NCBI RefSeq assembly: GCF_000982955.1
Contig: NZ_KQ058829.1
Span: 62,001-126,000 of the forward strand
Origin: Micromonospora sp. HK10
GTDB taxonomy: Bacteria > Actinomycetota > Actinomycetes > Mycobacteriales > Micromonosporaceae
Length of the DNA: 64,000 bases
Reading direction: 5' to 3'
The translations under genes were made by a program, and so were the position numbers. Of the stretch, positions 3,593 through 55,117 are shown piece by piece. The notes under the pieces were generated by a model, which made no database searches, was not told the DNA's origin, and saw nothing but the letters and a program-made list of their open reading frames with translations. Within the stretch, counting starts at the first letter, position 1. Every line of letters starts with the position of its first letter.

Positions 3593-3676
3593 TTGCAGCC
3601 ATGCCGGTCTCGGACGGCGCCGATCTCACCATCGCCGGCTGCCGGGCGGCCTGAAACGCGAAGTGAGGAGCTGCGG

Positions 3677-4725: not shown

Positions 4726-4786
4726 TTACTGAGAAAGGGCGGCTAGATTGACGTCCCAACCCTCGGTCGGTCCAAGTGGAGGTCCC

Positions 4787-14497: not shown

Positions 14498-15702
14498 TGC
14501 ACGTACTGATCGCCGGAGCGGGGCCGGTCGGGCTGACCGCGGCGCTCGCGCTGGCCCGCCGGGGCTGCGAGGTGACCGTGCTGGAGGCCGGTGACGCCCT
14601 CGCCGCCGAGTCCCGTGCCTCCACGTTCCACCCGCCGACGCTGGAGATGCTCGAGGCGTTGGGGGTCGGCGCGGACCTGTTGGCGCGCGGGCTGGTGGCG
14701 CCGACGTTCGCCTACCGGGATCGCCGGGAGGGACTGATCGCGGAGCTGGACCTCTCGGTGCTCGCCGAGGACACCCCGTACCCGTACCGGGTGCAGTGCG
14801 AGCAGTCGAAGCTGTGCGTGATCCTGCTGGCGCACCTGGCCGGGCAACCGACGGCCCGGGTCCGCTTCGGTTGGCCGGTCGACTCGGTACGACAGGCCGC
14901 GGATCGGGCCGACGGCGGTGTGGTCGCGGTCGCCGAGGACGGCCGGGAGGTGTCCGGCGACTGGCTGATCGCGGCCGACGGCGCCAGTTCGGCGGTACGG
15001 CGGGCGCTGGGGTTGCCCTTCGACGGGATCACTTACCCCGAACGGTTCCTGGTGGCCTCCACCGACGAGGACCTGCCAGTTCTGCTCGGCCCGCTGGCGT
15101 ACGTCAACTACGTCTTCGACCCGGTCGAGTGGTCGGTGCTGCTGCGCACGCCGGACCACTGGCGGGTGCTGCTGCCCACCCCCGAGGACACCCCTGACGC
15201 GCACGAGCTGGGCCGGCTCGACCGGCGGTTGCGGGCGATCGCCGATCCGGGCCGGCCGTGGCGGGTGGCGCACGCCAGTTTGTACCGGGTGCACCAGCGG
15301 GTCGCCGCGACGTTCCGGCAGGGGCGGGTGCTGCTGGCCGGCGACGCCGCGCACGTCAACAACCCGCTCGGTGGGCTGGGCATGAACTCGGGCATCCACG
15401 ACGCGGTCGCCTACGCGCAGGTGCTGGCCTCGGGCAGCCCGGCACCGGACGGTGGGGAGCTGGACCGGGCGGTGACGGCGGTGTCCGACGAGCGGCGCCG
15501 GATCGCACTGACCTACGTGCAGGAGGTCTCCGACCAGAACTACCGCCGGATGCGGGCCACCGATCCACAGTTGCGGTCCGCGCAGCTGGCCGGTCTGCGC
15601 GCGCTGGCCGCGGACCCGCAGGCGGCCCGCGCGTATCTGCTGCGCAGCTCCATGATTGCCTCGCTGCGCCCCGGCGCCGGACAGCCGGTGGTACGGGCAT
15701 GA
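14497..15702 (+). CDS. FAD-dependent aromatic monooxygenase (PHBH-type)
   Basis: Group A flavoprotein monooxygenase of 401 residues. It has the N-terminal dinucleotide motif GAGPVGL (residues 7-13), the central DG motif LIAADGASSAVRRALGL, and the C-terminal GDAAHVNNPLGGLGMNSGIHDA motif that contacts FAD ribityl. Such enzymes use NAD(P)H and O2 to hydroxylate aromatic or heteroaromatic rings, so an oxidised pyrrole derivative is a reasonable substrate class here. The start ATG overlaps the preceding TGA by one base, with CGGAGGT upstream. It lies mid-operon between the lyase and the second aldehyde dehydrogenase. Confidence 0.88.
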   Translation: MHVLIAGAGPVGLTAALALARRGCEVTVLEAGDALAAESRASTFHPPTLEMLEALGVGADLLARGLVAPTFAYRDRREGLIAELDLSVLAEDTPYPYRVQCEQSKLCVILLAHLAGQPTARVRFGWPVDSVRQAADRADGGVVAVAEDGREVSGDWLIAADGASSAVRRALGLPFDGITYPERFLVASTDEDLPVLLGPLAYVNYVFDPVEWSVLLRTPDHWRVLLPTPEDTPDAHELGRLDRRLRAIADPGRPWRVAHASLYRVHQRVAATFRQGRVLLAGDAAHVNNPLGGLGMNSGIHDAVAYAQVLASGSPAPDGGELDRAVTAVSDERRRIALTYVQEVSDQNYRRMRATDPQLRSAQLAGLRALAADPQAARAYLLRSSMIASLRPGAGQPVVRA

Positions 15703-17159
15703 CGGCACCCGGCGGCGGCCCGGTGATCGAGCGGGTGAACCCGTCCAGGTTCACCGAGCTGGTCGGCACGGTCGGTGTGAGCGGGCCTGAGCGGGTGGAC
15801 GTCCTGGTCCGCCGGGCCGACGCCGCGCAGCGGGGCTGGGCGGCCACCGGCATCGCGCGGCGGCTCGCCGCGCTGGCCGCCGGCGCCGACGCGATCGCCG
15901 GGCGGCTCGAACCGCTGGCCGGGCTGCTGGCCCGGGAGTCGGGCAAGGTGCTCGCCGACTGCCGCGGCGAGGTCGGGTTCGCCGGCACGTACCTGCGCTG
16001 GGTCATCGAGCACGCCCCGGCGGCGTACGCGGATCGGGAGATCGACGACGCGGCCGGTCGGCTGCTGCGGCTGCCCCGGCCGTACGGTGTGGTCGCCGCG
16101 ATCACGCCGTGGAATGCGCCGATCATCCTCACCCTGCTCAAGGTGGCCCCGGCCCTCGCCGCCGGCAACGCGGTGGTGGTCAAGCCCTCGCCGCTGGCGC
16201 CGCTGGCGGTCTCGGAGGTGCTGCGCCTGCTCGCCGGGGCGCTGCCCGACGGGACGCTGGCGGTCGTCCACGGCGACGCCGCCGCCGGTGCGGCGTTGGT
16301 CGGACACCCGCTGGTGCGCAAGGTGGCGTTCACCGGCGGCGGCGTGGCGGCCCGGCAGGTGGCGGCGACCGCGGCCACCCAGACCACACCGGTGGTGCTG
16401 GAGCTGGGCGGCAACGACGCGGCGATCTTCCTGCCGGACGCCGACCTGGGCACCGAGCCGATGCGCCGGCTGGTGCTGGCGAGTTTCGCCACCAGCGGCC
16501 AGGTGTGCATGGCTGCCAAGCGCCTGTATGTGCACCGCGGCCGCCGCGACGAGTTCGTGGCGGCGTACCGGGCCGCCGCGGCGGAGGTGCTGCGCGTCGG
16601 TGACGCGCTCACGCCGGGGGTGAGCATGGGCCCGGTCATCTCGGCCGGTGCCGTCGCCCGGATCGAGCGGATCGTTGCGGCGGCCGTCGCCCGGGGTGCC
16701 ACGGCGCTGCCGCTGGGCACTGTCGACGGTGGCACCGACCTGGCCGGCGGGTACTTCGTGACCCCGACGCTCGTGCTGGACGCACCGGACGACGCCGAGG
16801 TGGTCACCGGGGAGCAGTTCGGGCCGACGGTGCCGCTGCTGCTCTACGACGACGAGGAGGAACTGCTGGCCCGGGTCAACGCCGACGAGCTGGGCCTTGG
16901 CGGTTCGGTCTGGTCGGCCGACGAGGAGCGGGCGTTCGCGCTGGCCCGTCGGGTCGAGGCGGGCTTCGTCTTCGTCAACACGCACAACCGCACCGGGCTG
17001 TCGCTGAGGGCGCCGTTCGGTGGGGTGAAGCGCTCCGGCTACGGCCGTGAGTACGCCGAGGAAGGGCTGGCCGAGTACGCGCAGACCTGCGTCGTGCACG
17101 CGCCCGGCCCGTTCCGGCCCGGTGGCGCCGGGCTACCCGCCAACGCGTACCCGGGCTGA
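15699..17159 (+). CDS. Aldehyde dehydrogenase (second paralogue)
   Basis: NAD(P)-dependent aldehyde dehydrogenase of 486 residues, last gene of the operon beginning at 9842. It has ITPWNAPIILTLLKVAPALAAGN, KPSPLAP, the catalytic glutamate in LELGGND, the catalytic cysteine in FATSGQVCMAAKR, EQFGPTVPLL, and the C-terminal PFGGVKRSGYGRE typical of the family. ATG overlaps the previous stop. It appears a complete, active enzyme for oxidation of an aldehyde intermediate (semialdehyde type) generated by upstream monooxygenases. Confidence 0.9.
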   Translation: MTAPGGGPVIERVNPSRFTELVGTVGVSGPERVDVLVRRADAAQRGWAATGIARRLAALAAGADAIAGRLEPLAGLLARESGKVLADCRGEVGFAGTYLRWVIEHAPAAYADREIDDAAGRLLRLPRPYGVVAAITPWNAPIILTLLKVAPALAAGNAVVVKPSPLAPLAVSEVLRLLAGALPDGTLAVVHGDAAAGAALVGHPLVRKVAFTGGGVAARQVAATAATQTTPVVLELGGNDAAIFLPDADLGTEPMRRLVLASFATSGQVCMAAKRLYVHRGRRDEFVAAYRAAAAEVLRVGDALTPGVSMGPVISAGAVARIERIVAAAVARGATALPLGTVDGGTDLAGGYFVTPTLVLDAPDDAEVVTGEQFGPTVPLLLYDDEEELLARVNADELGLGGSVWSADEERAFALARRVEAGFVFVNTHNRTGLSLRAPFGGVKRSGYGREYAEEGLAEYAQTCVVHAPGPFRPGGAGLPANAYPG

Positions 17160-17188: not shown

Positions 17189-17464
17189 TCAGTAGTCGAC
17201 GACGACGCGGGCCGCGAGGCGCGGCTTGAGCCAGCCCGCCACCTCCAGGTGGGCGGGGTGGGCCTGGTAGGCGCGCAACGCGTCCGCGTCGGTGTGTGTG
17301 CTGATCATGCACAGGTCGTAGGAGACCGGGGTCCGCAGCGTGTCCAGGGCGACGGTCAGCGTCGCGATCTCATCAATTGTGCTGGTCAGACCTTCCAGCA
17401 GTGACTTCGCCTTGGCAGCATCGGCCGCATCGGCGAACTTCATCAGTACCACGTGCGTAAACAC
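17189..17464 (-). CDS. Dabb (stress-response alpha/beta barrel) protein
   Basis: Small protein of 91 residues matching the Dabb family (dimeric alpha/beta barrel), with FTHVVLMKF at the start and YDLCMISTHTDADALRAYQAHPAHLEVAGW in the second half. GTG at 17464 was chosen because it gives the canonical N-terminus with AGGGGGAC upstream. Dabb proteins share the ferredoxin-like barrel fold of IsdG heme oxygenases and of polyketide cyclases such as olivetolic acid cyclase; several act on small aromatics. It is divergent from the nitrilase operon and shares its operator, so it is probably an accessory enzyme of the pathway. No function can be assigned from sequence. Confidence 0.8.
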   Translation of the reverse strand: MFTHVVLMKFADAADAAKAKSLLEGLTSTIDEIATLTVALDTLRTPVSYDLCMISTHTDADALRAYQAHPAHLEVAGWLKPRLAARVVVDY

Positions 17465-17507
17465 CTGTTCGTCCCCCTGTTCCCCGGCGTCGCCCGAGTG
17501 TATGTTC

Positions 17508-17543: not shown

Positions 17544-19184
17544 ATGACCATCAGGGTTGCCGCCGTACAGTTCGAGGTCGGCCAGGACATCGGGGCCAAC
17601 CTGGCCACCTGCCTGCGCCTCGTCGCCGACGCCGCCCGACAGGGCGCACAACTCGTGGTGCTGCCCGAGTTCTGCAACCACCTGGCCTGGTACACCGATC
17701 GCGCCCAGGCACACGCCCTGGCCACCCGGCCGGGCGACGATTTCCTCACCGCGATCTCCGCGAGCGCCGCCGAGCATCGGGTGCACCTCAAAATCAACGT
17801 CACGCACGCCTACCCCGACGGGCGCACCGGCGGCACCAACTTCCTCTTCGGCCCGGACGGGGCGTTGCTCGGCAGCTGCGACAAGCAGGTCCTGATGGGC
17901 GCCGAGAACGACCACCTCGACCCCGCGACCGGGGTCGGACCCGTGCTCGACACCCCGCTCGGCCGGCTCGGCATGTACGCCTGCATGGAGGGCGTCATTC
18001 CCGAGACCACCCGCGGGCTCGCGCTGCGCGGCGCGCAGGTGCTGCTCAACAGCCTGAACTCGTTCGCCACCGATGAGGCCGCGCTGCACATTCCGGTGCG
18101 GGCCGCGGAGAACCGGGTCTGGGTGATCGCCGCCAACAAGGTCGGCCCGCTGCTGCCCGCCGAGCACCTGCCGGCCATGAGCCGCGGCCTGGGCGTGCCG
18201 GAGCAGTGGCTGCACGGTGCCGGCGAGTCGCAGATCGTCGCGCCGGACGGCACGGTGGTGGCCAAGGGCCCGCGCACCGGTGAGGCCGTCGTCATCGCCG
18301 ACATCGCTGTCGAGCGCGCCGACGACAAGCGCCGCCCGGACGGCAGCGACATCCTCGCGGCCCGCCGACCGGAACTCTACAGCCCACTCGGGGACGCACC
18401 GGCCGGTCGCCGCCGGCCGCCCGGCGCACCGAGCCTGCCGGTCGCCGTGGTCCGGCCCGGGGACCCGGGCCAGGCGGCCGACCTGCTCGGTAAGGCGGTC
18501 GCCGAGGGCGCGCTGCTCGCCGTGCTCGCGGAGAACGCCCTCGGCGCGCACGTCGGGCCGGCCGAGGTGGCCACGGCGCTGGCACCGGCGCTGCGCGGCA
18601 CCGACGGGTACGCCGTGGCCACCGCTCTCGGCCCCGACGGTCCGGTCGGGCTGCTCATCGGCCCGGATGGCGTGGTCGGCGAGCAGCCACAACTGCATCG
18701 GGCCGGCGCGGCCCGCGACGCCGTGCGGCCCGGCGGCGCGCTGCGCACCTTCGACCTGCCCTGGGGGCGGCTGGCGATCGTGGTGGGCGACGACGCGGTC
18801 TTCCCGGAGACGTTCCGGCTCGCCGCGCTCGCCGACGCCGATGTGGTCGCCGTGCCGTTCACCCCGCGCGAGCCCTGGGAACTGGCGCTGGGCCTGCCGG
18901 AGCGGGCCGCGGAGAACCGGCTCAACGTGATCGCCGCCGGGCGCCTCGGCACGGGCGCCGCGGTCTTCACCCTCAGCGCCGACTTCACCCTCTGGACCAC
19001 CTGGGCCGGACCGTTCACCGGCCGGATCAGCAGCCCGCTGCGCACCGACATCGCCGCGGACCGGCCCGTCACGCATGCCGTGGTGACCCCGGCGCAGGCG
19101 GCGAACCGGCTCGTCTCCCGCCGAACCGACCTCGTCGACGGCCGCCCGTGGCGGCTCGTCCAGGCCCTCACCGAAAGGCGCTGA
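17544..19184 (+). CDS. Tandem nitrilase-superfamily protein with degenerate second domain
   Basis: Carbon-nitrogen hydrolase of 546 residues, twice the usual size. The first half (1 to about 290) carries the full triad: Glu42 in VVLPEFCNH, Lys114 in CDKQVLMG, and Cys147 in GMYACMEGVIPE. The second half (about 305-546) repeats the fold: a glutamate in LAENALG, but the nucleophile position reads IVVGDDAVFPE, with Asp where Cys is expected. The second domain is therefore probably non-catalytic, serving structure or regulation. Nitrilase-family enzymes hydrolyse amides, nitriles or carbamoyl groups; ring-nitrogen release as ammonia is plausible here. It is the first gene of the operon to 26233. 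Confidence 0.88.
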   Translation: MTIRVAAVQFEVGQDIGANLATCLRLVADAARQGAQLVVLPEFCNHLAWYTDRAQAHALATRPGDDFLTAISASAAEHRVHLKINVTHAYPDGRTGGTNFLFGPDGALLGSCDKQVLMGAENDHLDPATGVGPVLDTPLGRLGMYACMEGVIPETTRGLALRGAQVLLNSLNSFATDEAALHIPVRAAENRVWVIAANKVGPLLPAEHLPAMSRGLGVPEQWLHGAGESQIVAPDGTVVAKGPRTGEAVVIADIAVERADDKRRPDGSDILAARRPELYSPLGDAPAGRRRPPGAPSLPVAVVRPGDPGQAADLLGKAVAEGALLAVLAENALGAHVGPAEVATALAPALRGTDGYAVATALGPDGPVGLLIGPDGVVGEQPQLHRAGAARDAVRPGGALRTFDLPWGRLAIVVGDDAVFPETFRLAALADADVVAVPFTPREPWELALGLPERAAENRLNVIAAGRLGTGAAVFTLSADFTLWTTWAGPFTGRISSPLRTDIAADRPVTHAVVTPAQAANRLVSRRTDLVDGRPWRLVQALTERR

Positions 19185-19187
19185 CCC

Positions 19188-19994
19188 GTGGCCGACACGT
19201 TGAAACCCGTCGAGGACATGCTCGACGACTCCCCCACGGTCGACGTCCACGAGACGTTCCACCGCTACCAGATACTCCTGGACGAGCTGAAGGCCAAGAT
19301 CGACGCACGGTTCGAGCTGACCCGCGACCCGTCCACCGAGCCGCTGGAGCACTACGGGGACTACCCGAACGGACCGGGCGGCTCGCTCGCCGCGTACACC
19401 GGGCCCGAGGTCGACTGGCTCGTACGCTCCTGGCTGGGCAACCCCGCCGCCAGCTTCGCCAACCTGCACCTGACGTGCTGGCTGGGCCCGCAGGTCAGGG
19501 TGCCGCACCTGGGGTTGGCCCTGCTCGTCTGGCCCGGCGGCTGGTTCTACGTCGACTCGGTGCCCCGGGTCAACATGGTCGAGCACGGCGACTACTACGA
19601 CAAGTACTACGAGCCGGTCAACGAGGAGTGGCTGCAACTCCGCACCGACCCGGCGTTCGACTACTTCGTCAGCCGGGCCGGGTTCATCCGGGCCAGCCTG
19701 TCGCCGACGGCGTACTGCTACTCCTTCGACCGCAGCCCGGAGAACATCGAGAGGGTCAGCCAGGTGACCCACGCCCACGTCGACCGCTGGCTGCGCTGGG
19801 TCGACGAGGCCGAGCCGGTGCCGGCCGAGGAGCGGGCCGCGCTCGCCGAGACCGATCTGCGGATCCGCCGCAATATCGCCGACCGCGACCCGGCGAACGT
19901 GATGGGCGTGCGCTACTTCGGCGAGGAGACCACCAACCGGCTCGTCCGCGCGCTCTGGGGCGGCGACCGCGAACTCCCCCGGCCGTCGGCATGA
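19188..19994 (+). CDS. Red chlorophyll catabolite reductase / bilin reductase-like protein (first)
   Basis: Protein of 268 residues resembling the RCCR / ferredoxin-dependent bilin reductase superfamily. Supporting segments, compared from memory with plant RCCR, are SWLGNPAASFANLHLTCWLG, PHLGLALLVWPGGWFYVDSVPR, the Y-x4-Y region YYDKYYEPVN, RAGFIRASLSPTAY (RCCR has an IRA--SPTA block), and a C-terminal ADRDPANVMGVRYFGEETTNRLVRAL. The family reduces open-chain tetrapyrroles with electrons from ferredoxin. GTG start lies three bases after the nitrilase stop. A second, different member is at 22252. Fold assignment is moderately sure; substrate unknown. Confidence 0.7.
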   Translation: MADTLKPVEDMLDDSPTVDVHETFHRYQILLDELKAKIDARFELTRDPSTEPLEHYGDYPNGPGGSLAAYTGPEVDWLVRSWLGNPAASFANLHLTCWLGPQVRVPHLGLALLVWPGGWFYVDSVPRVNMVEHGDYYDKYYEPVNEEWLQLRTDPAFDYFVSRAGFIRASLSPTAYCYSFDRSPENIERVSQVTHAHVDRWLRWVDEAEPVPAEERAALAETDLRIRRNIADRDPANVMGVRYFGEETTNRLVRALWGGDRELPRPSA

Positions 19995-20980
19995 GCGGTG
20001 CGCAGGAAGGCGACGTCCGGTCGGTCTGGTGGGCCGTACGCGTCCCCGGCGCGCCGGCGCCGTTCGACACCGCGCACCTGCGGGTCTACTACCGGGCGCG
20101 GCCCACCGGCTCGGACGCCGAGCGGCTCAGCGGGGTGCTGGCGGCCGACCCGGCCGGGGCACCGTACCCGGTGGTCCTGCTGGTCTCCGGCGTCAACGTC
20201 GGGCAGGACGCCTACCGCTGGCTGGCGGTGGAGCTGGCCGCGCGGGGCGTCGTCGCGGTGACCTACGACTGGGTCGGAGTGCTCTTCGCCGGCCTGCACG
20301 GGATCACTCCCGGCGTCGACCTGGACGCGGCCCGGCCGGAGGGCTACGGCAGCCGACCGACCAGCCCGTCGCTGCGCCCGGTGCTCGACTCGCTGGCGCA
20401 GCTCACCGGGCCGCTCGACGGGTTGCTCGACCTCGACCGGGTGGCGCTGGTGGGTCACTCCGCCGGCGGCACGGTGGCGCTGCAGTCGGCGCGCTTCCTG
20501 CCCGAGGTCCGCGCGGTGGCCACCTACGGGGCGCACACCATGGTGGCGACCATGCTCGGCTGGCCGGCCGGCACCGTGCTGCCGGCCCAGGCGGACTGCC
20601 CGGTCATGTTGCTCGCCGGCACCAACGACGGCGTGATCAACGGCTCAGCCGACCGGTACGGCGAGGACGCGGCCACCCGCGCCGACCCGATCACCCGCAC
20701 CTTCGACGAGGCGCTGCCCGAAGCGGGCGGCAGCAATCTGCTGGTGCGGCTCGCCGGTGCCAACCACTTCGGCATCGTGCACCCGCTCGACCCCACCTCG
20801 GCGCGTGCCTTCCTCGACGAGGAGGCGACCGCCGACCCGGAAAGCATCCGTGCGCTCGTGGTCGACCTGCTGTCCGGGTTCCTCGCCGTCCACCTTCGCG
20901 GCGAACCGGCCGACGGCTTCGACCGGTTGCTGGCAAAGCTCGACACCACCTCTTCGATCGCCTCGTTCCGTCGGAGGTAA
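19991..20980 (+). CDS. Alpha/beta hydrolase, chlorophyllase-like
   Basis: Serine hydrolase of 329 residues. The nucleophile elbow is GHSAGG (Ser157), the acid is likely in LLAGTNDGVING and the histidine in LAGANHFGIVHP. Order and spacing, with no lid of the lipase kind, resemble the dienelactone hydrolase / chlorophyllase group, whose members remove the phytyl ester from chlorophyll or pheophytin. No signal peptide or lipid box is visible, so it should be cytoplasmic. The ATG overlaps the preceding stop. Ester hydrolysis of a tetrapyrrole side chain is proposed from its neighbours (bilin-reductase-like, Rieske oxygenase); the sequence alone supports only hydrolase. Confidence 0.75.
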   Translation: MSGAQEGDVRSVWWAVRVPGAPAPFDTAHLRVYYRARPTGSDAERLSGVLAADPAGAPYPVVLLVSGVNVGQDAYRWLAVELAARGVVAVTYDWVGVLFAGLHGITPGVDLDAARPEGYGSRPTSPSLRPVLDSLAQLTGPLDGLLDLDRVALVGHSAGGTVALQSARFLPEVRAVATYGAHTMVATMLGWPAGTVLPAQADCPVMLLAGTNDGVINGSADRYGEDAATRADPITRTFDEALPEAGGSNLLVRLAGANHFGIVHPLDPTSARAFLDEEATADPESIRALVVDLLSGFLAVHLRGEPADGFDRLLAKLDTTSSIASFRRR

Positions 20981-20986
20981 GCCACC

Positions 20987-22255
20987 ATGCTCAAGAACTT
21001 CTGGTACGCGGTCGAGTTCTCCGACCGGGTCACCACCAAGCCGGCCCGGATCACCGTGCTCGGCCAGTACCTGGCTCTCTACCGCACCCCGAGCGGGCGC
21101 GTGGTAGCCCTGTCCGACCTGTGCGTACATCGGGGCGCGGCGCTTTCCGGCGGCTGGACGGCCGGCGACAACATCGTCTGCCCATACCACGGATGGCAGT
21201 TCGAGCCGGGCGGAGCATGCACGAAAATCCCGGCGAATCAGCCCGGCCGGGGCATCCCCACCAAGGCCCGGGTCGACTCGTATCCCGTGCAGGAGCGCTA
21301 CGGCTTCGTCTGGGTCTTCATGGGTGACCTGCCCGAGGCCGAGCGGCCGCCGATCCCCCTCTGGCCGGAGTTCGACAACCTGGTGGAAAACGGCGGGAAG
21401 TTCCGCGCGGTGACCGGCGAGTTCCTGTGGAAGGCCAACTACGAACGGATCCTGGAGAACGGCTGCGACATCGCACACGCACCCTTCGTGCACGGCAGCG
21501 TGTTCGGCAACCGAGAGAAGCCCGAGGTGCCCGAGTACGAGGTCGAGGTGCGCGACGAGTGGTCGGCGTACGCCACGGTCAGCCTGCACCCGCCGCGCTC
21601 GAAGGGCCTCTGGTCGTTGATCAGCCGCAACAACGCGGACCTGGCCAACCGCCCGCCAGTGGTCACCTCGGCCGGCTGGATGCTGCCTAACATGATCAAG
21701 CTGCACGTCCGACTGTCGATCGGCGACCTGATCATCTACGACACCAACATCCCGGTCGACGAGACGACCACCCTGGTCAAGTGGGTCGCCCTGCGCACCT
21801 TCTTCACCGGGGCCTGGGCCAACCGCAACGCAGTGCAGCGCGTCCTCAAGATCTTCTACCAGGACGCCGAGGTGGTGAACAACGTCCGCCCCGAGTTGCT
21901 CCCGTTCGACCTCGGCGCGGAGCTGCACGTCAAGAGCGACCTCATCGCGGTGCACTACCGGCGACGCCGACAGGAGCTGGCCGAGCAGGGCTGGATGCTC
22001 TCCGACGCCGACCGGATCACGGGCGACGTGCCACGGCGGGAGGCGACCGTCATCGCGTCGCCGGCCCGCCGGGAGAACCCGGAGCTCGCCCGCGCCTGGG
22101 TGCACAAGGCCAAGGGCGACCACCCGACCGTGGCGGAGGCGCAGCGGACCGGGCTCAAACGCATCACCGAGGAGGAGGGCGCCGACGCCGCCGCAGGAGC
22201 CGAGGCGCAGGCGAACCCCACCAGCAGCGCGACGAGGACGAAGGAGCAGGCATGA
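20987..22255 (+). CDS. Rieske oxygenase, pheophorbide a oxygenase-like
   Basis: Rieske non-heme iron oxygenase alpha subunit of 422 residues. The [2Fe-2S] ligands are Cys46 and His48 in CVHRG and Cys65 and His68 in CPYHGW. The mononuclear iron site follows at Asp161, His164 and His169 in ENGCDIAHAPFVHGS. The two-site layout and the DxxHxxxxH motif match PAO/LLS1, VanA and related proteins. The plant PAO C-terminal CxxC and membrane helices are absent; the C-terminus is an Ala/Glu-rich tail. CGGAGG precedes the ATG. It lies between the chlorophyllase-like and bilin-reductase-like genes, so macrocycle opening or bilin oxidation is a reasonable proposal. No dedicated ferredoxin gene is visible nearby. 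Confidence 0.88.
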   Translation: MLKNFWYAVEFSDRVTTKPARITVLGQYLALYRTPSGRVVALSDLCVHRGAALSGGWTAGDNIVCPYHGWQFEPGGACTKIPANQPGRGIPTKARVDSYPVQERYGFVWVFMGDLPEAERPPIPLWPEFDNLVENGGKFRAVTGEFLWKANYERILENGCDIAHAPFVHGSVFGNREKPEVPEYEVEVRDEWSAYATVSLHPPRSKGLWSLISRNNADLANRPPVVTSAGWMLPNMIKLHVRLSIGDLIIYDTNIPVDETTTLVKWVALRTFFTGAWANRNAVQRVLKIFYQDAEVVNNVRPELLPFDLGAELHVKSDLIAVHYRRRRQELAEQGWMLSDADRITGDVPRREATVIASPARRENPELARAWVHKAKGDHPTVAEAQRTGLKRITEEEGADAAAGAEAQANPTSSATRTKEQA

Positions 22256-22974
22256 GTCTCCCGCTGGAACTCTGCGAGAACGCGGTGGCCCACCTGACCG
22301 CCCGGCACCCGCTCACCGCGGTCATCGACGAGCCGCTGAGCAGCCCGATGTCGCCCGACCCGGTGGGTGCGCTGCGGGTCTGGCGGGGCGCACCGGGCCA
22401 GCCGGTGGTCAAGGTGGTCTACGTCGGGCTGGTCGTCCCGATGATCCGCCTCGACAGCCACATGGTCTTCGCCTTCACCGCCGCCGACAGCGCGGTCCCG
22501 CACTTCACCCTGGACTCGGTGTACGGCGGCGACTACTACGCCTATCACCTCGACCTGATCCCCCGGGCCGAGCTGAGCAGCCACCTGCCCTACCTGGACG
22601 CGGCGTACCAGCCGCTCACCGCGGTCTTCACCGAGGCCAGCGCGATGGACGGGCTGAGCCGGGCCGACATCGGGCCCCGCCAGTGCGCGCTGATGTCGCC
22701 GTGGATGCTGGTCGGCCGGGCCACCGAGGAGTCGTTCCGGAAGATCGGAGCCGCCGTCTCCGCGTACGCCGAGCACTGGTCCGCGCTGGTGACCGACGGC
22801 CTGCCGGCCGACGTCGTGGCGGGATTGGCCGACACCGACCTGGCCGCCCGGGACACCGCCGTACGGGTCAACCTGTTCAGCCCCGACGTCGACCCGGTCT
22901 GGGCCCGGGTCACCCGGCTGATCGGCGAGCCGGCGACCGACCGGATCCGAGCGGAGCTGATCGGCAATGGGTGA
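22252..22974 (+). CDS. Ferredoxin-dependent bilin reductase-like protein (second)
   Basis: Protein of 240 residues. Its order of motifs follows the bilin reductase family (HY2, PcyA, RCCR) as I recall it: VPHFTLDSVYGGDYYAYHLDL (family: P-F--------I-VLDL-PL), YLDAAYQPLTAVF (YY--L-PLYHKY), ALMSPWMLVGRA (FFSP---WTRF), FRKIGAAVSAYAEHWSALV (F---YY-AWL-L), and DPVWARVTRLIGEPATDRI (DP---LLKRLIGE--A--). This agreement over the whole length makes the assignment fairly convincing. Members reduce biliverdin, phycobilins or red chlorophyll catabolite. ATG overlaps the Rieske stop, with AAGGAG upstream; its 3' end overlaps the next gene by eight bases. Confidence 0.75.
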   Translation: MSLPLELCENAVAHLTARHPLTAVIDEPLSSPMSPDPVGALRVWRGAPGQPVVKVVYVGLVVPMIRLDSHMVFAFTAADSAVPHFTLDSVYGGDYYAYHLDLIPRAELSSHLPYLDAAYQPLTAVFTEASAMDGLSRADIGPRQCALMSPWMLVGRATEESFRKIGAAVSAYAEHWSALVTDGLPADVVAGLADTDLAARDTAVRVNLFSPDVDPVWARVTRLIGEPATDRIRAELIGNG

Positions 22975-23968
22975 GCCCACCGCACCGACAACCGTAGCGG
23001 CGGACTCCGAACCGAGCCAGTGGCAGCAGCGGATCGCCGGCGAGTGGCACGGCCGGCCGTCGCTGTTCACCGCAACCGGCGTCTGGCAGGGCTTCGAGGA
23101 CATCCGCCGCTCGTCGGTCTTCTCCGACGGCGTCACCACGTATTTCATGGACGGCGGGCTGGTCGGTGGGGGCGAGTTGGCCGGGCGCTACCGGCTGGGC
23201 GCGCCGTTCGCCTTCAGGGTGATCGACTCCGACGCCGATCGGGCCTACACCGGCCCCGACTTCTTCGGCACGGGCCAGCCGTACGGGTCCTTCGTGGACG
23301 CCCACTACTACGGCCCCGGCTGGCAGGTGGACCTGAACACCTGGAACCAGGTGCTGCCCGACGGCCAGACCCAGGTCTACTCGTCGATGCTCTACCAGGG
23401 CTGGGCTGTGGTGGGCTGCTTCAACGGCGTCTACACGCGAAGCTTCGACCACGACACCAACCCGGACACCCGGGAGCGGGTGACGCGGTTCCTGTCCGCC
23501 GAAGAGCGGCGCGGGCCGGTGCCGTACATCCTGCCGACCAAGCAGGCCGGCGCGTTCACCGGTAGCTGCGAGCTGTGGGGTGCCGACCAGCAGCTGCGCG
23601 GCACGGTCGCGGTGCGCCTCGGTCTGGAGCCGATCGACCTGCTCCGCACCCGCCGGGTCGTGCACTGGACCGGCGCCGGCCTGGACCGGCGGTACGTGGT
23701 CGAGCAGCGCCGCGACGGCGACCGGCTGTTCTTCGAGGGCCCCGACGCCTGGGGCAACGCGCAGGGCTTCGGTCGCGCCAGCTACCCGTCCTGGCACTTC
23801 CACGCCGACGGCGGCGACGTGTGGAAGGTCAAGGGACGCGAGTTCGCCATCGACGCCGAGCCGGGCATGTCCGCCGGCGGGCGCCTGGCCGTGGTGTACG
23901 AGCTGTTCCGGGGCAACGTGCTGGACAGCGTCCTGCACGGCCTGCTCGCCTGGGAGGCAGCCGGATGA
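22967..23968 (+). CDS. Lipocalin-like beta-barrel protein of unknown function
   Basis: Protein of 333 residues rich in alternating aromatic and polar strands (for example GEWHGRPSLFTATGVWQGFEDIRRSSVF, YGPGWQVDLNTWNQVLPDGQTQVYSSMLYQGW, GSCELWGADQQLRGTVAVRLG). The opening WHGRPSLFTATGVWQG and the repeated strand pattern suggest two lipocalin/FABP-like barrels of the DUF3598 or CpcT/CpeS kind, families that include phycobilin lyases and heme carriers. I do not recognise a named family. No signal peptide is visible, so it is cytoplasmic. It overlaps both neighbours and is an obligate member of the operon; a ligand-carrier for the tetrapyrrole intermediate would fit (inference). Confidence 0.6.
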   Translation: MGEPTAPTTVAADSEPSQWQQRIAGEWHGRPSLFTATGVWQGFEDIRRSSVFSDGVTTYFMDGGLVGGGELAGRYRLGAPFAFRVIDSDADRAYTGPDFFGTGQPYGSFVDAHYYGPGWQVDLNTWNQVLPDGQTQVYSSMLYQGWAVVGCFNGVYTRSFDHDTNPDTRERVTRFLSAEERRGPVPYILPTKQAGAFTGSCELWGADQQLRGTVAVRLGLEPIDLLRTRRVVHWTGAGLDRRYVVEQRRDGDRLFFEGPDAWGNAQGFGRASYPSWHFHADGGDVWKVKGREFAIDAEPGMSAGGRLAVVYELFRGNVLDSVLHGLLAWEAAG

Positions 23969-24813
23969 CCGCGGTGGTGGTGACCGGCGGCACCCGCGGG
24001 ATCGGTGCCGGCCTGGTACGCGCGCTGCTGGCCCGCGGCGCCCGGGTCGCGTTCTGCGGACGCAGCGCGGAGTCGGTGGCAGCGGCGCTTGCCACACTGC
24101 GTTCCGAAGCCTTGGTGCCGGCCGGAGCCGAGGTGCTCGGGGTACGTGCGGACGTCACCGACCGCGCCGACCTGTCCGTGCTCTGGTCGACGGCCGCCGA
24201 GGCGTTCGGCGGGGTCGACATCTGGATCAACAATGCGGGCACGAACCATGCCCGCCGCCCACTGTGGGAGCTGCCGCCGGCAGAGCTGGACGGAGTGCTC
24301 GCGGCCAACCTCGGCGGGGTGGCCCGGGCCAGCGCGGTGGTGCTCGCCGCGATGATCGAGCAGGGCCGCGGCGCGCTGTGGAACATGGAGGGCTTCGGTT
24401 CCAACGGCCAGGCCCGGCCGGGGTTGACCGGGTACGGGGCGTCGAAGCGCGCGGTCACCTACCTGACCGACGGGCTGGCCAAGGAGCTAACCGCAGCCGG
24501 GGTCGCCGACCGGGTCACCGTGCACCACCTCTCCCCCGGCATCGTCGTGACCGACCTGCTCACCCACGACTACCCGCCGGACGAGCTGGCGAAGGCCAAA
24601 AAGATCTTCAACATCCTCGGTGACCGGGTCGAGACGGTCACCCCGTGGCTGGCCGACCGGGTCCTCGCCGGGGGCCGCAACGGCAGCCGGGCCGCCTGGC
24701 TGACCAGCCGCAAGGCCGCCGCTCGGTTCGCCGTCGCCAGCTTCCGCAAGCGCGACCTCTTCGGCGACTCCGTCGGCGTCCCCGCGGGGACCCGGCGCGA
24801 GCACCTGTCGTGA
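23965..24813 (+). CDS. SDR oxidoreductase, chlorophyll b reductase (NYC1/NOL)-like (second)
   Basis: Short-chain dehydrogenase of 282 residues with TGGTRGIG (7-14), IWINNAGTN (86-94) and catalytic YGASK (157-161). The diagnostic stretches for NYC1/NOL are present: the exact IWINNAGTN, then RRPLWEL, NMEGFGSNG (140-148), HLSPGIVVTDLL, and KIFNILGDRVETVTPWLADRV, corresponding to SPGM-LTELL and FNI----ETVA-TLV-RM in the plant enzymes. NYC1/NOL reduce the C7 formyl of chlorophyll b. ATG overlaps the preceding stop. The match to this subfamily is stronger than that of the paralogue at 1990. Whether its substrate is truly chlorophyll b or another formyl/keto tetrapyrrole is unknown. Confidence 0.85.
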   Translation: MTAVVVTGGTRGIGAGLVRALLARGARVAFCGRSAESVAAALATLRSEALVPAGAEVLGVRADVTDRADLSVLWSTAAEAFGGVDIWINNAGTNHARRPLWELPPAELDGVLAANLGGVARASAVVLAAMIEQGRGALWNMEGFGSNGQARPGLTGYGASKRAVTYLTDGLAKELTAAGVADRVTVHHLSPGIVVTDLLTHDYPPDELAKAKKIFNILGDRVETVTPWLADRVLAGGRNGSRAAWLTSRKAAARFAVASFRKRDLFGDSVGVPAGTRREHLS

Positions 24814-25493
24814 ACGGCAGCGACTACACCGTCGTCCTCGCGCTGGAGGACTTCGTGCCGACCGGTCTGGCGCTGGTCGGGTTCTGGATCCTCGCCGGGC
24901 TCTCCGCTCGGGTCGTGCCGCGGGTGGGCCCGGTCGCCCACGTCAGCGCCGTCCTCATCGGCCTCGGCGGCCTGGCCAAGTCGACCTGGAAGCTGCTGCT
25001 GTCCGGGTTCTCGATCGACCTGCCCTGGCTGGAGGCGGCGCTGTTTCCGCTGATGGCGCTCGGCGCGGTCGGGCTGATCTGGGGCCTGGCGAGCGCATTG
25101 CGCGGGCGCAGCCTGCCGTGGTGGCCGTTCGCCGCCGTGCTGGCCGTGACCGCCGGCGTGGCCGCCGGGTACGCCGTCTTCGCCCCCGTCTTCGCCCTCG
25201 CGACCACGGGCGTGACGACCATCAGCGTCCTGGCCGCGATCATCGCCGGCCGGCGGCGCGCCTGGGCCGCGGTGACGCTCTACGTCGCCGGGCTGGCCTG
25301 CGTGCTGCTGCTGGTGCCGCTGCGCAACCATCCCGAGCACGAAACCCTGGCCCTCCAGTGGGTCGAGCAGGGCACCAACACCCTCGGCCAGGCCGCGCTG
25401 CTGGCCGCGGCGTGGCTGACCGTGCGCGCGCACCACCGGGCCTCGACCACGTCCCACCCGACCCCCGCCCAGGAAGGAGTTGTCCGCTCATGA
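24810..25493 (+). CDS. Polytopic membrane protein, unknown
   Basis: Membrane protein of 227 residues with about six or seven hydrophobic helices (near residues 13-30, 38-58, 70-92, 108-135, 140-160, and 185-205). It starts with a GTG overlapping the SDR stop (GTGA), and an AGGAAGGAG inside its 3' end is the ribosome site of the next gene. There are no recognisable transporter motifs. In position it recalls the membrane gene at 8106, another small polytopic protein in the regulon. Possible roles are substrate passage or a membrane electron carrier; nothing in the sequence decides. Confidence 0.7.
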   Translation: MNGSDYTVVLALEDFVPTGLALVGFWILAGLSARVVPRVGPVAHVSAVLIGLGGLAKSTWKLLLSGFSIDLPWLEAALFPLMALGAVGLIWGLASALRGRSLPWWPFAAVLAVTAGVAAGYAVFAPVFALATTGVTTISVLAAIIAGRRRAWAAVTLYVAGLACVLLLVPLRNHPEHETLALQWVEQGTNTLGQAALLAAAWLTVRAHHRASTTSHPTPAQEGVVRS

Positions 25494-26233
25494 CCGACGC
25501 GCTCGGCTGGCGCCGCAAGTTCGGTGTCATCGCCCCGTCGACGAACACCATCGTGGAGCCGGACTTCTACCGGATGACCGTACCCGGTGTGACCGCGCAC
25601 TTCTCCCGGATCCACATCCGCGACCAGGACCTCTCCAGCGACGGCAACTTCGAGAACCTCCTGACCCAGATCCGCGACGAGATCGGCGCGGCCTGCGAGC
25701 GGGTGCTGACCTGCGAGCCCGACTACATGGTGATGGGCATGTCCGCCGAGACGTTCTGGGGCGGCGTCGAGGGCAACCGGCAGTTCGTCGCCCAGATCAA
25801 GGCGATCACCGGGCTGGAGGTGGCGACCGGCGCGGAGGCGTGTGAGCGGGCACTGCGCCTCTACGGCGCCCGCCGGATCGGCGTGGTGACGCCGTACCAA
25901 CCGATCGGCGACACGAACGTCGAGCAGTTCTTCTCCGAGATCGGCTTCGAGGTGGTCACGATCGAGGGTCTCAAGTGCCCGACCGCGGTCTCCATCGCCC
26001 ACGTCCCGGAGGACGAGTTGCGCCGGGCGCTGCTGGCCGTGGACGGCCCGGACGTCGACGCCCTGGTCCAGTGCGGCACCAACCTGTCGATGGTCGGGCT
26101 GGCCGACGAGGCCGAACGCTGGCTCGGTAAGCCGGTGATCGCCATCAACGCGGCGACCTGGTGGATGGCGCTGCGCGAGAACGGGATCACCGACAAGGTG
26201 TACGGCGCCGGTTCCCTGCTGCGCGAGCACTGA
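25490..26233 (+). CDS. Maleate isomerase / arylmalonate decarboxylase family protein
   Basis: Asp/Glu racemase superfamily protein of 247 residues. The N-terminal FGVIAPSTNTIVEPDFYRM matches the PSSNT-xxE start of maleate cis-trans isomerases, and LVQCGTNLS carries one catalytic cysteine (Cys195). The first cysteine of true maleate isomerases is missing: the site reads VMGMSAETF (residues 81-89), an arrangement closer to arylmalonate decarboxylase, which also has a single cysteine. It therefore may be an isomerase variant or a decarboxylase of a disubstituted dicarboxylic acid. ATG with AGGAAGGAG upstream; last gene of the operon, followed by a strong hairpin. Confidence 0.82.
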   Translation: MTDALGWRRKFGVIAPSTNTIVEPDFYRMTVPGVTAHFSRIHIRDQDLSSDGNFENLLTQIRDEIGAACERVLTCEPDYMVMGMSAETFWGGVEGNRQFVAQIKAITGLEVATGAEACERALRLYGARRIGVVTPYQPIGDTNVEQFFSEIGFEVVTIEGLKCPTAVSIAHVPEDELRRALLAVDGPDVDALVQCGTNLSMVGLADEAERWLGKPVIAINAATWWMALRENGITDKVYGAGSLLREH

Positions 26234-26305: not shown

Positions 26306-27697
26306 TCAGCTCCGCGGGATTCCGCGACGCCTCGGCAGCACCACGACCAGGCCGACACCGAGCAGGAGCACGGCGCTGGACCAGAGCAGCAGCAGCGCCG
26401 TCACGCCCCCCTCGCCCGTGTTCGGCAGCGACCCGTCGCCATTGCCACCGCCGCCGCCTTCGCTCTCGTCGCCGGTCGCGGCCCGCGACTTCACCGTGAA
26501 TTTGGCGACGATCGACGTCGCCGCCGGGCCGGTCACCGGGTCCGCGCCCGCGTTGCACTCGGTGTCGACCTGCGGGTGGTCGAAGACGATGTTGGTGACC
26601 GTCAGCGACACCAGCCCTGCCTTCGAGGTGGTGTAGGTCCCGGTCAGCGTCGCGCCGGGCAGGACGGCGTTGGGGTTGATCGCGCCGTACGCCGGGCCTC
26701 GGAGGTTGACCGTACCGCTGCCCACCCCGCCGACCTTGACGGTCGCCTTGGGCACCAGATCGCCGGCACCGACCGGCACCGGTCCGCTCTTCGGGCCGGC
26801 CGAGAACTTCAGGCGCACCGTCACCTTGGCGCCCCGCCCAGGGTTGCTGGGCGACATGCTCAGGGTGTGCGTGGCGGTCCACGACGAGAGGCTGCTCAGC
26901 GTCTTGCAGTTCAGCTTCACGCTCTTCGGGCCGAACGGCTGGGCGGGCGTGTCGACCTCGTCGGTTGCCGTCGGCGGGTCGTCCGTCGCCGACGACGGGA
27001 GCGACAGCGACGGTTTCGCGGAGGGCGACGGCGTTGCGGAGGGGGACGGCGTTGCGGAGGGCGACGGGCTCGGCGGTGGGGTCGCGGTGCCGGTACCGCC
27101 GACGGTGAAGCTCTCCACGATGGAGGTCGGCACCGGTGCCGCCTTGTGGTCGCGGTCGCCGGCCGCCGAGCAGTGCGTCGTGGCCGAGGCGTTGGTGAAC
27201 GTGACCCGCCCGACGGTGAGCGTCGCCGCTCCGGCGGCGGAGGCGAAGTAGGTGCCGGTCGTGGTGATCGGGCCGAGCGGCGCTTCCGGGGCGACGGCCC
27301 GTGCCGGGTACGAGGACATCCGCAGCGTCGCGCTGCCGGAGAGGGAGCCACCCAGGGCCAGCGTGACATTCACCGGCACGTCACCGGCGTTCAGCCCCAC
27401 CGGCCCGTTGTCGGGGCCGGTCTTCGCCGTGAGCGTGACGGTCACGGTGTCGCCGACCTTCGGCGCGGCCGGTGACTGGGTCAGGGTGAAGGTGTCCTGC
27501 CAGACCGTCGGCGAGCTGCCGGTGCCGGCGTCGTTGAAGTAGAGCCGGCAGCCCAGCGTCCCGGCCGTGGGGCCGACCGCCGCGGCGGGCAGCGTCGCCC
27601 GGGCGGGGGCCGCCGCCGGGATCGCGAGTAGCAGCAGCAACGGCGCCAGGACGAGCGCGAACGCTGCCACCCGGACGGGATAACGACCTCGGGTCAT
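26306..27697 (-). CDS. LPxTG-anchored surface protein with two repeated domains
   Basis: Secreted protein of 463 residues. After a signal peptide (hydrophobic LVLAPLLLLLAIPAAAPARA) it has an ectodomain with GTLGCRLYFNDAGTGSSPT and DRDHKAAPVPTSIVESFTV, shared with the WxL protein at 36955. A Pro/Ser/Thr linker follows (about 205-240), then a second, related beta domain. The C-terminus is LPNTG, a hydrophobic helix and an RRR tail, the sortase anchoring signal. It is the last gene of the surface/importer operon; its ATG overlaps the stop of the neocarzinostatin-like gene. A role in capturing a hydrophobic ligand at the cell wall is inference. Confidence 0.85.
   Translation of the reverse strand: MTRGRYPVRVAAFALVLAPLLLLLAIPAAAPARATLPAAAVGPTAGTLGCRLYFNDAGTGSSPTVWQDTFTLTQSPAAPKVGDTVTVTLTAKTGPDNGPVGLNAGDVPVNVTLALGGSLSGSATLRMSSYPARAVAPEAPLGPITTTGTYFASAAGAATLTVGRVTFTNASATTHCSAAGDRDHKAAPVPTSIVESFTVGGTGTATPPPSPSPSATPSPSATPSPSAKPSLSLPSSATDDPPTATDEVDTPAQPFGPKSVKLNCKTLSSLSSWTATHTLSMSPSNPGRGAKVTVRLKFSAGPKSGPVPVGAGDLVPKATVKVGGVGSGTVNLRGPAYGAINPNAVLPGATLTGTYTTSKAGLVSLTVTNIVFDHPQVDTECNAGADPVTGPAATSIVAKFTVKSRAATGDESEGGGGGNGDGSLPNTGEGGVTALLLLWSSAVLLLGVGLVVVLPRRRGIPRS
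27018..27071. repeat. Three 18-bp tandem repeats in the surface-protein linker
   Basis: Three consecutive units close to GCGGAGGGCGACGGCGTT (27018, 27036, 27054) encode, on the minus strand, repeated PSPSAT segments of the Pro/Ser/Thr-rich linker. Such repeats can change copy number by slippage and so alter linker length. Confidence 0.75.
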
Positions 27698-28392
27698 TGG
27701 GTCCTCCGGTTCCGGTAGGGCATCAGCACGAGCAGGCCGATGCAGAGCAACAGCAGGCCGGAGCCGACCAGCACGGTGACCGCGTACCGGTCCGGGCCGG
27801 CGCTCACCGGGTTGGCGTTGAGCGTCGGGGTCGACGTGCCGGCTGCGCCCGCCGGCCCGGTCGAGGGTGCCGTGGTGGCTTCCGGCGTGGCCGCCGGCGC
27901 CGCGGGCGCGGGGGTCGCGGATGGGGCTCCCGGTGAGGGCTGCTGGGCCGACTTCTTGCCGAACGTCAACGTCACCGAGACCTTGTTGGCCTCGACCTGG
28001 TCGGCGTTGCCGCTCGTGGGCAGAATCTGCGCCGCGACCACGCACTCGCGCTTGGTGCAGTCGAACGCGCCGAACTTCTGGGCCAGCTTCAGAGTGACCG
28101 TGGGCAGCTTCCCGCTGCCGTCGGCGTTGACGAACGCGGCCCCGCCGGACAGGTTGCAGTCGGTCGGTCCCTTGAAACCGGCGACGCACTGACCGACGGC
28201 GATCTGCTTCAGGTTCGGGGTGAAACCCGAACCGTTGACGATGACCTGCTGCTTGTCCGTCAGCCCGGTGGTGGCGCTGACGGTGAGGGTCGGCGCGGCG
28301 AACGCGGCCGGGGGTGCCGCGACGACGGCGAGGCCGCTGCTGGTGGCGAGCAGGGCGGCGAGCGTGAGCGCCCGGCGGCGGATGGTTCGCAC
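27694..28392 (-). CDS. Neocarzinostatin-like membrane-anchored surface protein
   Basis: Protein of 232 residues: signal peptide (RTIRRRALTLAALLATSSGLAVVAA, split here at the processing region AFA), then an immunoglobulin-like domain with TVSATTGLTDKQQVIVNGSGF, AVGQCVAGF-x-DCNLSGG and a second Cys pair (DCTKRECVV). That pattern matches the neocarzinostatin/actinoxanthin apoprotein family, which binds hydrophobic ligands such as enediynes. A Pro/Ala/Thr linker, one membrane helix and the basic tail RNRRTQ follow, without an LPxTG. GTG start has AGGAGAT upstream. Its family's ligand-binding cleft makes a hydrophobic tetrapyrrole ligand conceivable (inference). Confidence 0.75.
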   Translation of the reverse strand: MRTIRRRALTLAALLATSSGLAVVAAPPAAFAAPTLTVSATTGLTDKQQVIVNGSGFTPNLKQIAVGQCVAGFKGPTDCNLSGGAAFVNADGSGKLPTVTLKLAQKFGAFDCTKRECVVAAQILPTSGNADQVEANKVSVTLTFGKKSAQQPSPGAPSATPAPAAPAATPEATTAPSTGPAGAAGTSTPTLNANPVSAGPDRYAVTVLVGSGLLLLCIGLLVLMPYRNRRTQ

Positions 28393-28457
28393 GGCGATCT
28401 CCTGACAGGTTCGGCGCAGGCCGGCACGGGCAAGTGGCGGGGCGACGCGGAGCGGGC

Positions 28458-36882: not shown

Positions 36883-36908
36883 GCGGTTCCACCCTTCGAC
36901 TGGTTGGT

Positions 36909-36941
36909 GTGGGGGCGGCCGGCTCGGCCGACCGCCCCCAC
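36909..36941. terminator. Strong intra-operon hairpin after the WxL gene
   Basis: Arms GTGGGGGCGG and CCGCCCCCAC form a perfect 10-bp stem, extended by a small inner GGCC/GGCC stem. It lies between the WxL gene and the DUF916 gene and may attenuate transcription or protect the upstream mRNA end. Confidence 0.65.
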
Positions 36942-36954
36942 CTCGGGGCGGTCC

Positions 36955-55024: not shown

Positions 55025-55117
55025 GTGCGACCTCTTCGTCGTCAGTGGCTGCGATCGGTGGGAGGACCGGCATTGTGAACCCGACAAGGGCCGGCCAGAA
55101 CGGTGCCAGGGGTGAGC

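Follow-up and report, generated by a model that had tools for sequence, protein, structure and literature searches.

An actinomycete operon with two proteins of the RCC reductase/bilin reductase fold that probably degrades ring-opened tetrapyrrole pigments

Background

What is a pair of relatives of the plant RCC reductase (RCCR) doing in a single operon of an actinomycete? The operon lies at positions 17544–26233 of a 64,000-nucleotide stretch of Micromonospora sp. HK10 (assembly GCF_000982955.1, contig NZ_KQ058829.1, positions 62,001–126,000), which is called the window here and to which coordinates refer unless a locus is named. A first-pass annotation had read its genes as counterparts of four plant chlorophyll-breakdown families and proposed bacterial tetrapyrrole catabolism. 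The enzymes of chlorophyll breakdown in plants include chlorophyllase or pheophytinase, PAO, RCCR, which reduces the red chlorophyll catabolite (RCC) to the primary fluorescent catabolite, and MES16; as far as is known, plants mostly go no further than tetrapyrrolic catabolites. The yearly amount of chlorophyll made and broken down is put at about 10^12 kg (PMC7318184).

Our analysis indicates that the operon probably lets this soil-type actinomycete degrade ring-opened tetrapyrrole pigments. Tetrapyrrole catabolism of whatever kind is the interpretation that we hold with good confidence; that the substrate is an imported linear tetrapyrrole, most likely derived from chlorophyll, we put forward with moderate confidence. 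The proposal of bacterial tetrapyrrole catabolism is favoured because of the conserved synteny, the co-occurrence of the two RCCR-fold proteins, the predicted calycin fold of a third protein and the surrounding amidase and lyase genes, while the four-family argument on which it had been founded fails.

Results

Nine coupled genes and two RCCR-fold proteins

The nine genes, all on the forward strand, exist as first described and are joined by gaps of 3–6 nt or overlaps of 4–8 nt. They encode a double-domain CN hydrolase (17544–19184; CN_hydrolase 3.8e-43, two stretches); RCCR1, a member of the RCC-reductase family (19188–19994, after a 3-nt gap); an alpha/beta hydrolase similar to PET hydrolases and cutinases (19991–20980, overlapping RCCR1 by 4 nt, with a GHSAGG nucleophile motif); a Rieske non-heme iron oxygenase of the VanA_C type (20987–22255, after a 6-nt gap; VanA_C 7.5e-29); RCCR2, predicted to have the fold shared by RCCR and the ferredoxin-dependent bilin reductases (FDBRs) (22252–22974, 4-nt overlap); a predicted double-calycin protein, referred to as 22967 (22967–23968, 8-nt overlap); a short-chain dehydrogenase/reductase (SDR; 23965–24813, 4-nt overlap; adh_short 1.3e-37); a small membrane protein (24810–25493, 4-nt overlap); and an enzyme of the Amdase/maleate-isomerase superfamily (25490–26233, 4-nt overlap; Amdase 3.5e-19 for the open reading frame 25118–26233).

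The likeness of the 19188 and 22252 products to RCCR or bilin reductases was borne out for both. RCCR1, which has 95% identity with a protein of Micromonospora zamorensis, exceeds the curated cut-off of the Pfam RCC_reductase profile (53.9 versus 24.9 bits) and matches PDB entry 3agb (8.2e-17). RCCR2 reaches only 11.5 bits with the same profile, so that we assign it no more narrowly than to the RCCR/FDBR superfamily; its structure model (predicted local distance difference test, pLDDT, 96.2) has RCCR as the top structural matches, and hhalign relates it to RCCR1 (98.3%). Sequence searches of the PDB with RCCR2 and 22967 gave nothing relevant (seven chance-like matches in one search, none in another). 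The alpha/beta/alpha bilin-reductase fold is thus supported, for RCCR2 by the model and for RCCR1 at the level of sequence; its absence was what the first-pass annotation had named as a refutation of its reading.

Two residues of plant RCCR, Glu154 and Asp291, are taken here to be catalytic. RCCR1 keeps Asp234 in 28 of 28 sequences at the position of D291 in its alignment with 3agb, and RCCR2 has, in 35 of 35 sequences each, Asp88 in the E154 column, Asp101, and Asp214 near D291 (in the superfamily alignment the D291 column is displaced by one position). In the superfamily tree (36 rows) RCCR2 forms a single clade, and the branches of plant RCCR and tomato HY2 are too long for these two to be placed. 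RCCR1 matched none of 72,556 plasmid records. The family label alone is not new, as databases already give the name RCC reductase to single proteins.

Conservation of the operon

The best 80 of 157 confirmed loci, which come from 18 named genera, were compared together with as much as 10 kb of flanking sequence. Since they were fetched by likeness to RCCR1, RCCR1 itself is no evidence in the counts; the heuristic open reading frame calls missed it in L023 and L053, but tblastn finds it in all 80. The order amidase–RCCR1–hydrolase–Rieske oxygenase–RCCR2–22967–SDR forms an uninterrupted single-strand run in 69 of the 80 loci, representing 17 genera; this seven-gene run is missing from eleven loci, namely L023, L033, L035, L036, L038, L039, L042, L047, L053, L073 and L078. 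Taken singly, the clusters recur in 76 loci for the CN hydrolase and the alpha/beta hydrolase, 78 for RCCR2, 77 each for the Rieske oxygenase, 22967, the SDR and the Amdase-like enzyme, and 48 for the small membrane protein. This order, together with the recurrence of the core in two distant genomes (below), confirms that the operon is not a chance grouping. Orphan RCCR1 genes were observed in Actinoplanes couchii (L033, 10001–10804) and Nonomuraea corallina (L047, 9995–10813).

RCCR1 and RCCR2 (E ≤ 1e-10) occur in the same 10 of 246 genomes of the class and in no other; G000 is the window's own genome, and two other members of its genus in this sample lack both proteins. G055 and G241 are probably the same genomes as L078 and L022, and so are not additional to the 80 loci. 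A phylum sample of 296 genomes added two genera (G476 and G514). Their loci hold an HpcH lyase, an amidase and the four genes RCCR1, Rieske oxygenase, RCCR2 and 22967 that form the core of the compared gene set. HMGL, Amdase and a FAD monooxygenase are further present in G514, and RCCR1 of G476 is preceded by HyuB and HyuA (2e-159 and 5e-89), a luciferase-type monooxygenase and an isochorismatase-like protein.

Six of the 10 genomes belong to one family (f5) of small-genome actinobacteria, with genomes of 1.0–1.7 Mb and, on the fetched contigs, 54–61% GC. They contain nine (G004), eight (G032 and G083), seven (G067), five (G096) and three (G050) RCCR-fold hits, some of them fragmentary; those of G004 include two short RCCR1-type hits and those of G050 are distant paralogues only. 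In G032, a 1.7-Mb genome with 100% completeness and 2% contamination, none of the eight hits overlaps another. One of its loci (L087) reads RCCR1, hydrolase, Rieske oxygenase, 22967 twice, SDR, membrane protein and Amdase, after which come homologues of the ABC importer and the binding protein found in the window; a small-genome paralogue in this locus comes closer than the window's RCCR1 to the bilin reductase profile PF05996 (26.6 bits), still below the 31-bit cut-off. The same genome has a second catabolic cluster (L095, 2543–12719) with two more RCCR2-type genes, an amidase, a FAD monooxygenase, an aldehyde dehydrogenase, a hydrolase and a gene resembling that of a binding protein. Outside any catabolic cluster lies an RCCR2-type gene that has diverged strongly (L096, 9284–10108, reverse strand), beside genes that we take to be those of trigger factor, clpP and clpX.

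The double calycin, the CN hydrolase and the Amdase-like enzyme

The 22967 product (333 residues) has no Pfam match. In the predicted double-calycin fold its best match is BFA1; identity to the DUF3598/BFA1 double-barrel proteins and to nitrobindin is 9–11%, and the CpeS lyase is also among the closest known barrel systems. We regard 22967 as a candidate pigment carrier or isomerase. In the CN hydrolase the first domain has a nucleophile Cys (CMEG) where the second has DDAV, at what is presumably the position of the nucleophile motif. The last enzyme of the operon passes the Amdase Pfam threshold (69.8 versus 25.9 bits) and falls short of the NCBIfam arylmalonate decarboxylase equivalog (66.1 versus 225 bits); aligned to 2xed it retains one of two cysteines that we assume to be active-site residues, the second being Met.

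Discussion

A route for tetrapyrrole breakdown

The gene content suggests the following sequence of events. The pigment or its fragments could be captured and imported by a surface protein of the neocarzinostatin fold, sortase-anchored proteins and a liv-type ABC importer encoded next to the operon. The alpha/beta hydrolase would remove an ester, and if the substrate bears the beta-keto ester of chlorophyll, the Amdase-like enzyme could decarboxylate the freed acid. The Rieske oxygenase may hydroxylate or open the pigment, and successive double bonds would be reduced by the two enzymes of predicted RCCR fold, with the double calycin holding a hydrophobic intermediate. Flavin monooxygenases, the SDR and aldehyde dehydrogenases might then cut and oxidise the methine bridges to yield monopyrroles of the lactam or maleimide type, whose ring opening and nitrogen release could be carried out by the CN hydrolase, the isochorismatase-like and the cyclase-family hydrolases, and in G476 also by HyuA/HyuB. 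The resulting methyl-branched diacids would enter central metabolism via PrpD, PEP-mutase/isocitrate-lyase-type, HpcH or HMGL lyases and acyl-CoA enzymes, and an IclR protein is probably the regulator.

Chlorophyll as the source is suggested by the conserved esterase-type hydrolase, by the one-Cys Amdase-like enzyme, which possibly acts on a beta-keto acid, and by the lack of heme oxygenase (PF01126) in the window's genome. Hydantoinases and 5-oxoprolinases open lactams, and a lactam is the type of terminal ring found in linear tetrapyrroles. The downstream enzymes would also match fragments of the hematinic acid or maleimide type: according to PMC7318184, hematinic acid is a product of chlorophyll a in vitro and has been found in leaves, and maleimides were reported by others from senescent leaves and sediments but remained undetected in that study's own leaves.

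A more ambitious version, to which we give only tentative credence, is that the genes form a complete mineralisation pathway for chlorophyll-type tetrapyrroles (import, de-esterification, ring opening by a Rieske oxygenase other than PAO, two successive reductions by RCCR-fold enzymes while a calycin carries the pigment, cleavage to monopyrroles, lactam opening and lysis to central metabolites), which would be spread over actinomycetes, kept and multiplied in the small-genome actinobacteria, and would represent a microbial sink, so far missing, for a pigment that is among Earth's most abundant.

Several observations weigh against breakdown of a chlorophyll-derived tetrapyrrole. The Rieske oxygenase, in which both the Rieske motif (CxH..CxxH at residue 46) and the iron motif (DIAHAPFVH at 161) are intact, had been likened to PAO, a reading that we reject in view of its VanA_C domain and the failure of the PaO profile (PF08417) to match at E ≤ 1; PaO was also missing from three distant homologues (E ≤ 0.1) and exceeded its cut-off in none of nine genomes. 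Its top solved relatives are SxtDIOX, SxtT, one unnamed Rieske protein and dicamba demethylase, and the solved members of this type include enzymes for dicamba, saxitoxin precursors and methylxanthines but none for a tetrapyrrole. The VanA_C rather than PaO domain leans towards a place among unrelated aromatic-degradation enzymes, which the first-pass annotation had named as its other refutation. Chlorophyllase identity of the hydrolase is unsupported, with 15.9 bits for PF07224 (20003–20980; cut-off 26); the best 60 of 144 PDB matches of its profile include PET hydrolases and cutinases besides further alpha/beta hydrolases, but chlorophyllase is not among them. The supposed NYC1/NOL likeness of the SDR is not confirmed, its scores being generic and below the cut-offs of the 25 shown of 198 NCBIfam families. 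The coincidence of four plant families therefore shrinks to one superfamily, matched twice over. Where plant RCCR has Glu154, RCCR1 has Ala111 (28 of 28 sequences), and with 19.2 bits it stays below the 31-bit cut-off of the bilin reductase profile. RCCR and FDBRs use ferredoxin, and no ferredoxin gene turned up among the scanned window proteins. BFA1 is known for ATP-synthase assembly, not for pigment binding. Importers of the liv type usually carry small molecules, so that import of fragments fits better than that of a whole tetrapyrrole. Finally, RCCR1 has no operon gene in reach in 2 of the 80 loci (L033 and L047), and at E 1e-8 the stretches fetched from G476 and G514 lack counterparts of the window's SDR and hydrolase (L091 has a different hydrolase).

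Could the substrate instead be a bilin derived from heme or from phycobiliproteins (biliverdin, bilirubin, phycocyanobilin or urobilins), with its ring opened elsewhere and the enzymes acting no differently? The D-P-A stretch of RCCR1 is common to FDBRs (E-K-D-P-A in PebB), and heme oxygenase is present in 3 of the 7 RCCR genomes tested (G055, G092 and G241), although on contigs apart from the RCCR genes; it was not found in the other four, the window's own included. Heme bilins carry no ester, which counts against them, given an esterase-type hydrolase in 76 of the 80 loci. FDBRs of heterotrophic bacteria do act on biliverdin (PMC10151467). On balance we consider a heme- or phycobilin-derived substrate unlikely.

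The RCCR-fold enzymes might also have taken on a substrate that is not a tetrapyrrole, such as another pyrrolic, indolic or polycyclic aromatic compound, which would make the operon an ordinary aromatic-degradation cluster. Its Rieske oxygenase, SDR, FAD monooxygenase, aldehyde dehydrogenases and hydrolase all belong to kinds that serve aromatic catabolism, and the lack of E154 in RCCR1 and the liv-type importer agree with such a role; two distinct RCCR-fold proteins, a calycin predicted to resemble tetrapyrrole-binding barrels and the multiple RCCR-fold genes of small genomes are hard to explain by it, and we judge it rather improbable. A biosynthetic cluster for a bilin-type pigment, cofactor or natural product has in its favour that bacterial relatives of FDBRs are biosynthetic (PMC10151467). 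It appears very improbable, since amidases, lyases, a CoA ligase, two aldehyde dehydrogenases and an importer suit breakdown, and neither the scanned window proteins nor the recurrent clusters of the 80 loci included a heme oxygenase, a biliprotein or a gene for biosynthetic assembly.

Relation to known systems

The operon resembles the plant chlorophyll breakdown pathway in uniting an oxygenase, an RCCR-type protein and a hydrolase, but its oxygenase and hydrolase are of other families, and the added amidases and lyases make the bacterial unit point towards complete breakdown. Unlike plant RCCR (PDB 2zxk/3aga), with which RCCR2 shares 15–18% identity, the bacterial proteins are two different paralogues in one operon with a VanA-type, not a PaO-type, oxygenase. 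Like DdmC, SxtT and SxtDIOX of the dicamba, vanillate and saxitoxin type, the Rieske oxygenase has a VanA_C domain, with its Rieske motif and iron motif both intact; unlike them it is conserved beside RCCR genes. FDBRs (PcyA, PebA, PebB, HY2) and the pre-PcyA clusters have the fold and the D-P-A stretch in common with the bacterial system and likewise occur in non-photosynthetic bacteria, whereas RCCR1 and the L087 paralogue score below the PF05996 cut-off.

PMC10151467 describes FDBRs of heterotrophic bacteria, takes RCCRs as the outgroup and mentions Schekmanbacteria sequences; its pre-1 and pre-3 clusters are characterised by genes for heme oxygenase, globin and V4R; the main text contains no word beginning with 'actinobacteria' or 'nocardia'. 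No heme oxygenase, BBAG globin or V4R pair was seen among the Pfam-scanned genes of the window or the selected scanned genes of L082, L085 and L091. Our searches of the open-access PMC literature showed no title or abstract beginning that describes such an operon, PMC2965369 contains no terms for microbial or soil degradation, and we found no prior account of the operon, the paired reductases, the calycin or their distribution in open-access literature.

If our interpretation is correct, RCCR-type reduction occurs outside plants, the origin of plant RCCR is put into context, and the 333-residue 22967 without a Pfam match is assigned to a pathway. A defined bacterial gene set for the remaining breakdown would make the fate of these pigments genetically testable.

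Neighbouring genes

The unit exceeds the nine genes and covers about 404–26233; perhaps it reaches to about 38600, surface proteins and ABC importer included. Most of the following counts refer to clusters in the 80 loci, and those of outer genes are lowered by contig ends and the 10-kb flank; the few homologue counts, made at a loose cut-off, admit paralogues (the second SDR mostly matches the operon's own).

The left end has three genes on the reverse strand: an AMP-dependent acyl-CoA ligase (404–1990, starting inside the open reading frame 404–2575; AMP-binding 4.3e-75; cluster 30, 6 loci), the second SDR where the first-pass annotation had placed it (1990–2787; adh_short 2.2e-39), a 60% identical homologue of which is separated by about 3 kb from a gene of the RCCR family in G092 (L085), and an isochorismatase-family hydrolase (2827–3501; 3.8e-32) with homologues near RCCR genes in G004 and G032. 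On the forward strand follow a DUF4437/cupin protein (3600–4543; 5.3e-40; 21 loci), a hydrolase of the cyclase family PF04199, presumably that of kynurenine formamidase and isatin hydrolase (4748–5620; 7.3e-28; no locus within the flanks), and a MmgE/PrpD-family dehydratase (5617–7086; 4.3e-55; homologue in 1 locus); a 57% identical homologue of the cyclase, followed by PrpD, is found in the RCCR locus of G476. Neither the window's cyclase nor its binding protein (below) has a match in the 80 loci. An HpcH/HpaI (CitE-like) C-C lyase (7161–8003, reverse; HpcH_HpaI 2.1e-35; 14 loci) and a membrane protein (8106–8813, forward; homologue in 8 loci) precede the IclR protein (8828–9622, reverse; IclR_C 4.1e-47; 29 loci), which is divergent from the oxygenase genes. 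The latter, on the forward strand, comprise a flavin reductase (9842–10795; Flavin_Reduct 8.6e-43; 27 loci) and an acyl-CoA dehydrogenase-fold protein that is probably its partner in a two-component monooxygenase (10840–12078; Acyl-CoA_dh_2 1.3e-13; 50 loci), then aldehyde dehydrogenase 1 (12078–13577; 5.6e-111; aldehyde dehydrogenase cluster in 71 loci), a PEP-mutase/isocitrate-lyase family lyase (13574–14497; PEP_mutase 4.1e-40; 18 loci), nearest to the NCBIfam prpB methylisocitrate lyase below its cut-off (212.8 versus 354.4 bits), a FAD-dependent monooxygenase (14497–15702; FAD_binding_3 5.2e-52; 66 loci) and aldehyde dehydrogenase 2 (15699–17159; 6.4e-122). A Dabb (A/B barrel) protein lies on the reverse strand (17189–17480; 4.8e-17; 33 loci). 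In L031 (573–1820) the flavin reductase is fused to an HMGL-like domain (9e-45 and 4.8e-8); the window copy is a flavin reductase only.

Downstream, all on the reverse strand, are a secreted protein with an LPNTG-type sortase tail (26306–28189, in a longer open reading frame; no Pfam match; homologue in 4 loci), whose membership in the system is uncertain, and a secreted, membrane-anchored protein of the neocarzinostatin family (27694–28461; 6.5e-18). The main cluster of the latter is present in 23 loci, 17 of them from Nocardia, and adding a second cluster brings the number to 25 (NCSa and NCSb, L002–L081). The family occurs in 6 of the 10 RCCR genomes versus 31 of the 236 others, on the RCCR contig in G000, G092 and G241 (about 8, 3 and 17 kb away) and weakly, on other contigs, in three; this association is suggestive only, and it is possible that the enediyne-apoprotein fold is used for surface pigment binding. 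The branched-chain-type ABC importer (28458–34673; permeases and ATPases at 28458–33328, presumed solute-binding protein without Pfam match at 33315–34673) is probably part of the system, because its homologues directly follow the operon in G032 (L087); in G092 (L085) the same importer and a neocarzinostatin-family protein are near another RCCR gene. Two further secreted proteins follow (35854–38607), the first matching WxLIP_PGBD (1.4e-9) and the second WxL below the cut-off (23 versus 25 bits).

Farther along the window, also on the reverse strand, a JetD-like protein (PADLOC E 1e-10), a 1027-residue protein and two more proteins without family (43564–50378) possibly form a divergent Wadjet-type defence operon. 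Beside the JetD-type gene lies a SbcC/SbcD-like pair (50760–55087, reverse strand), the first member of which PADLOC also matches to mad3 and LmuB.

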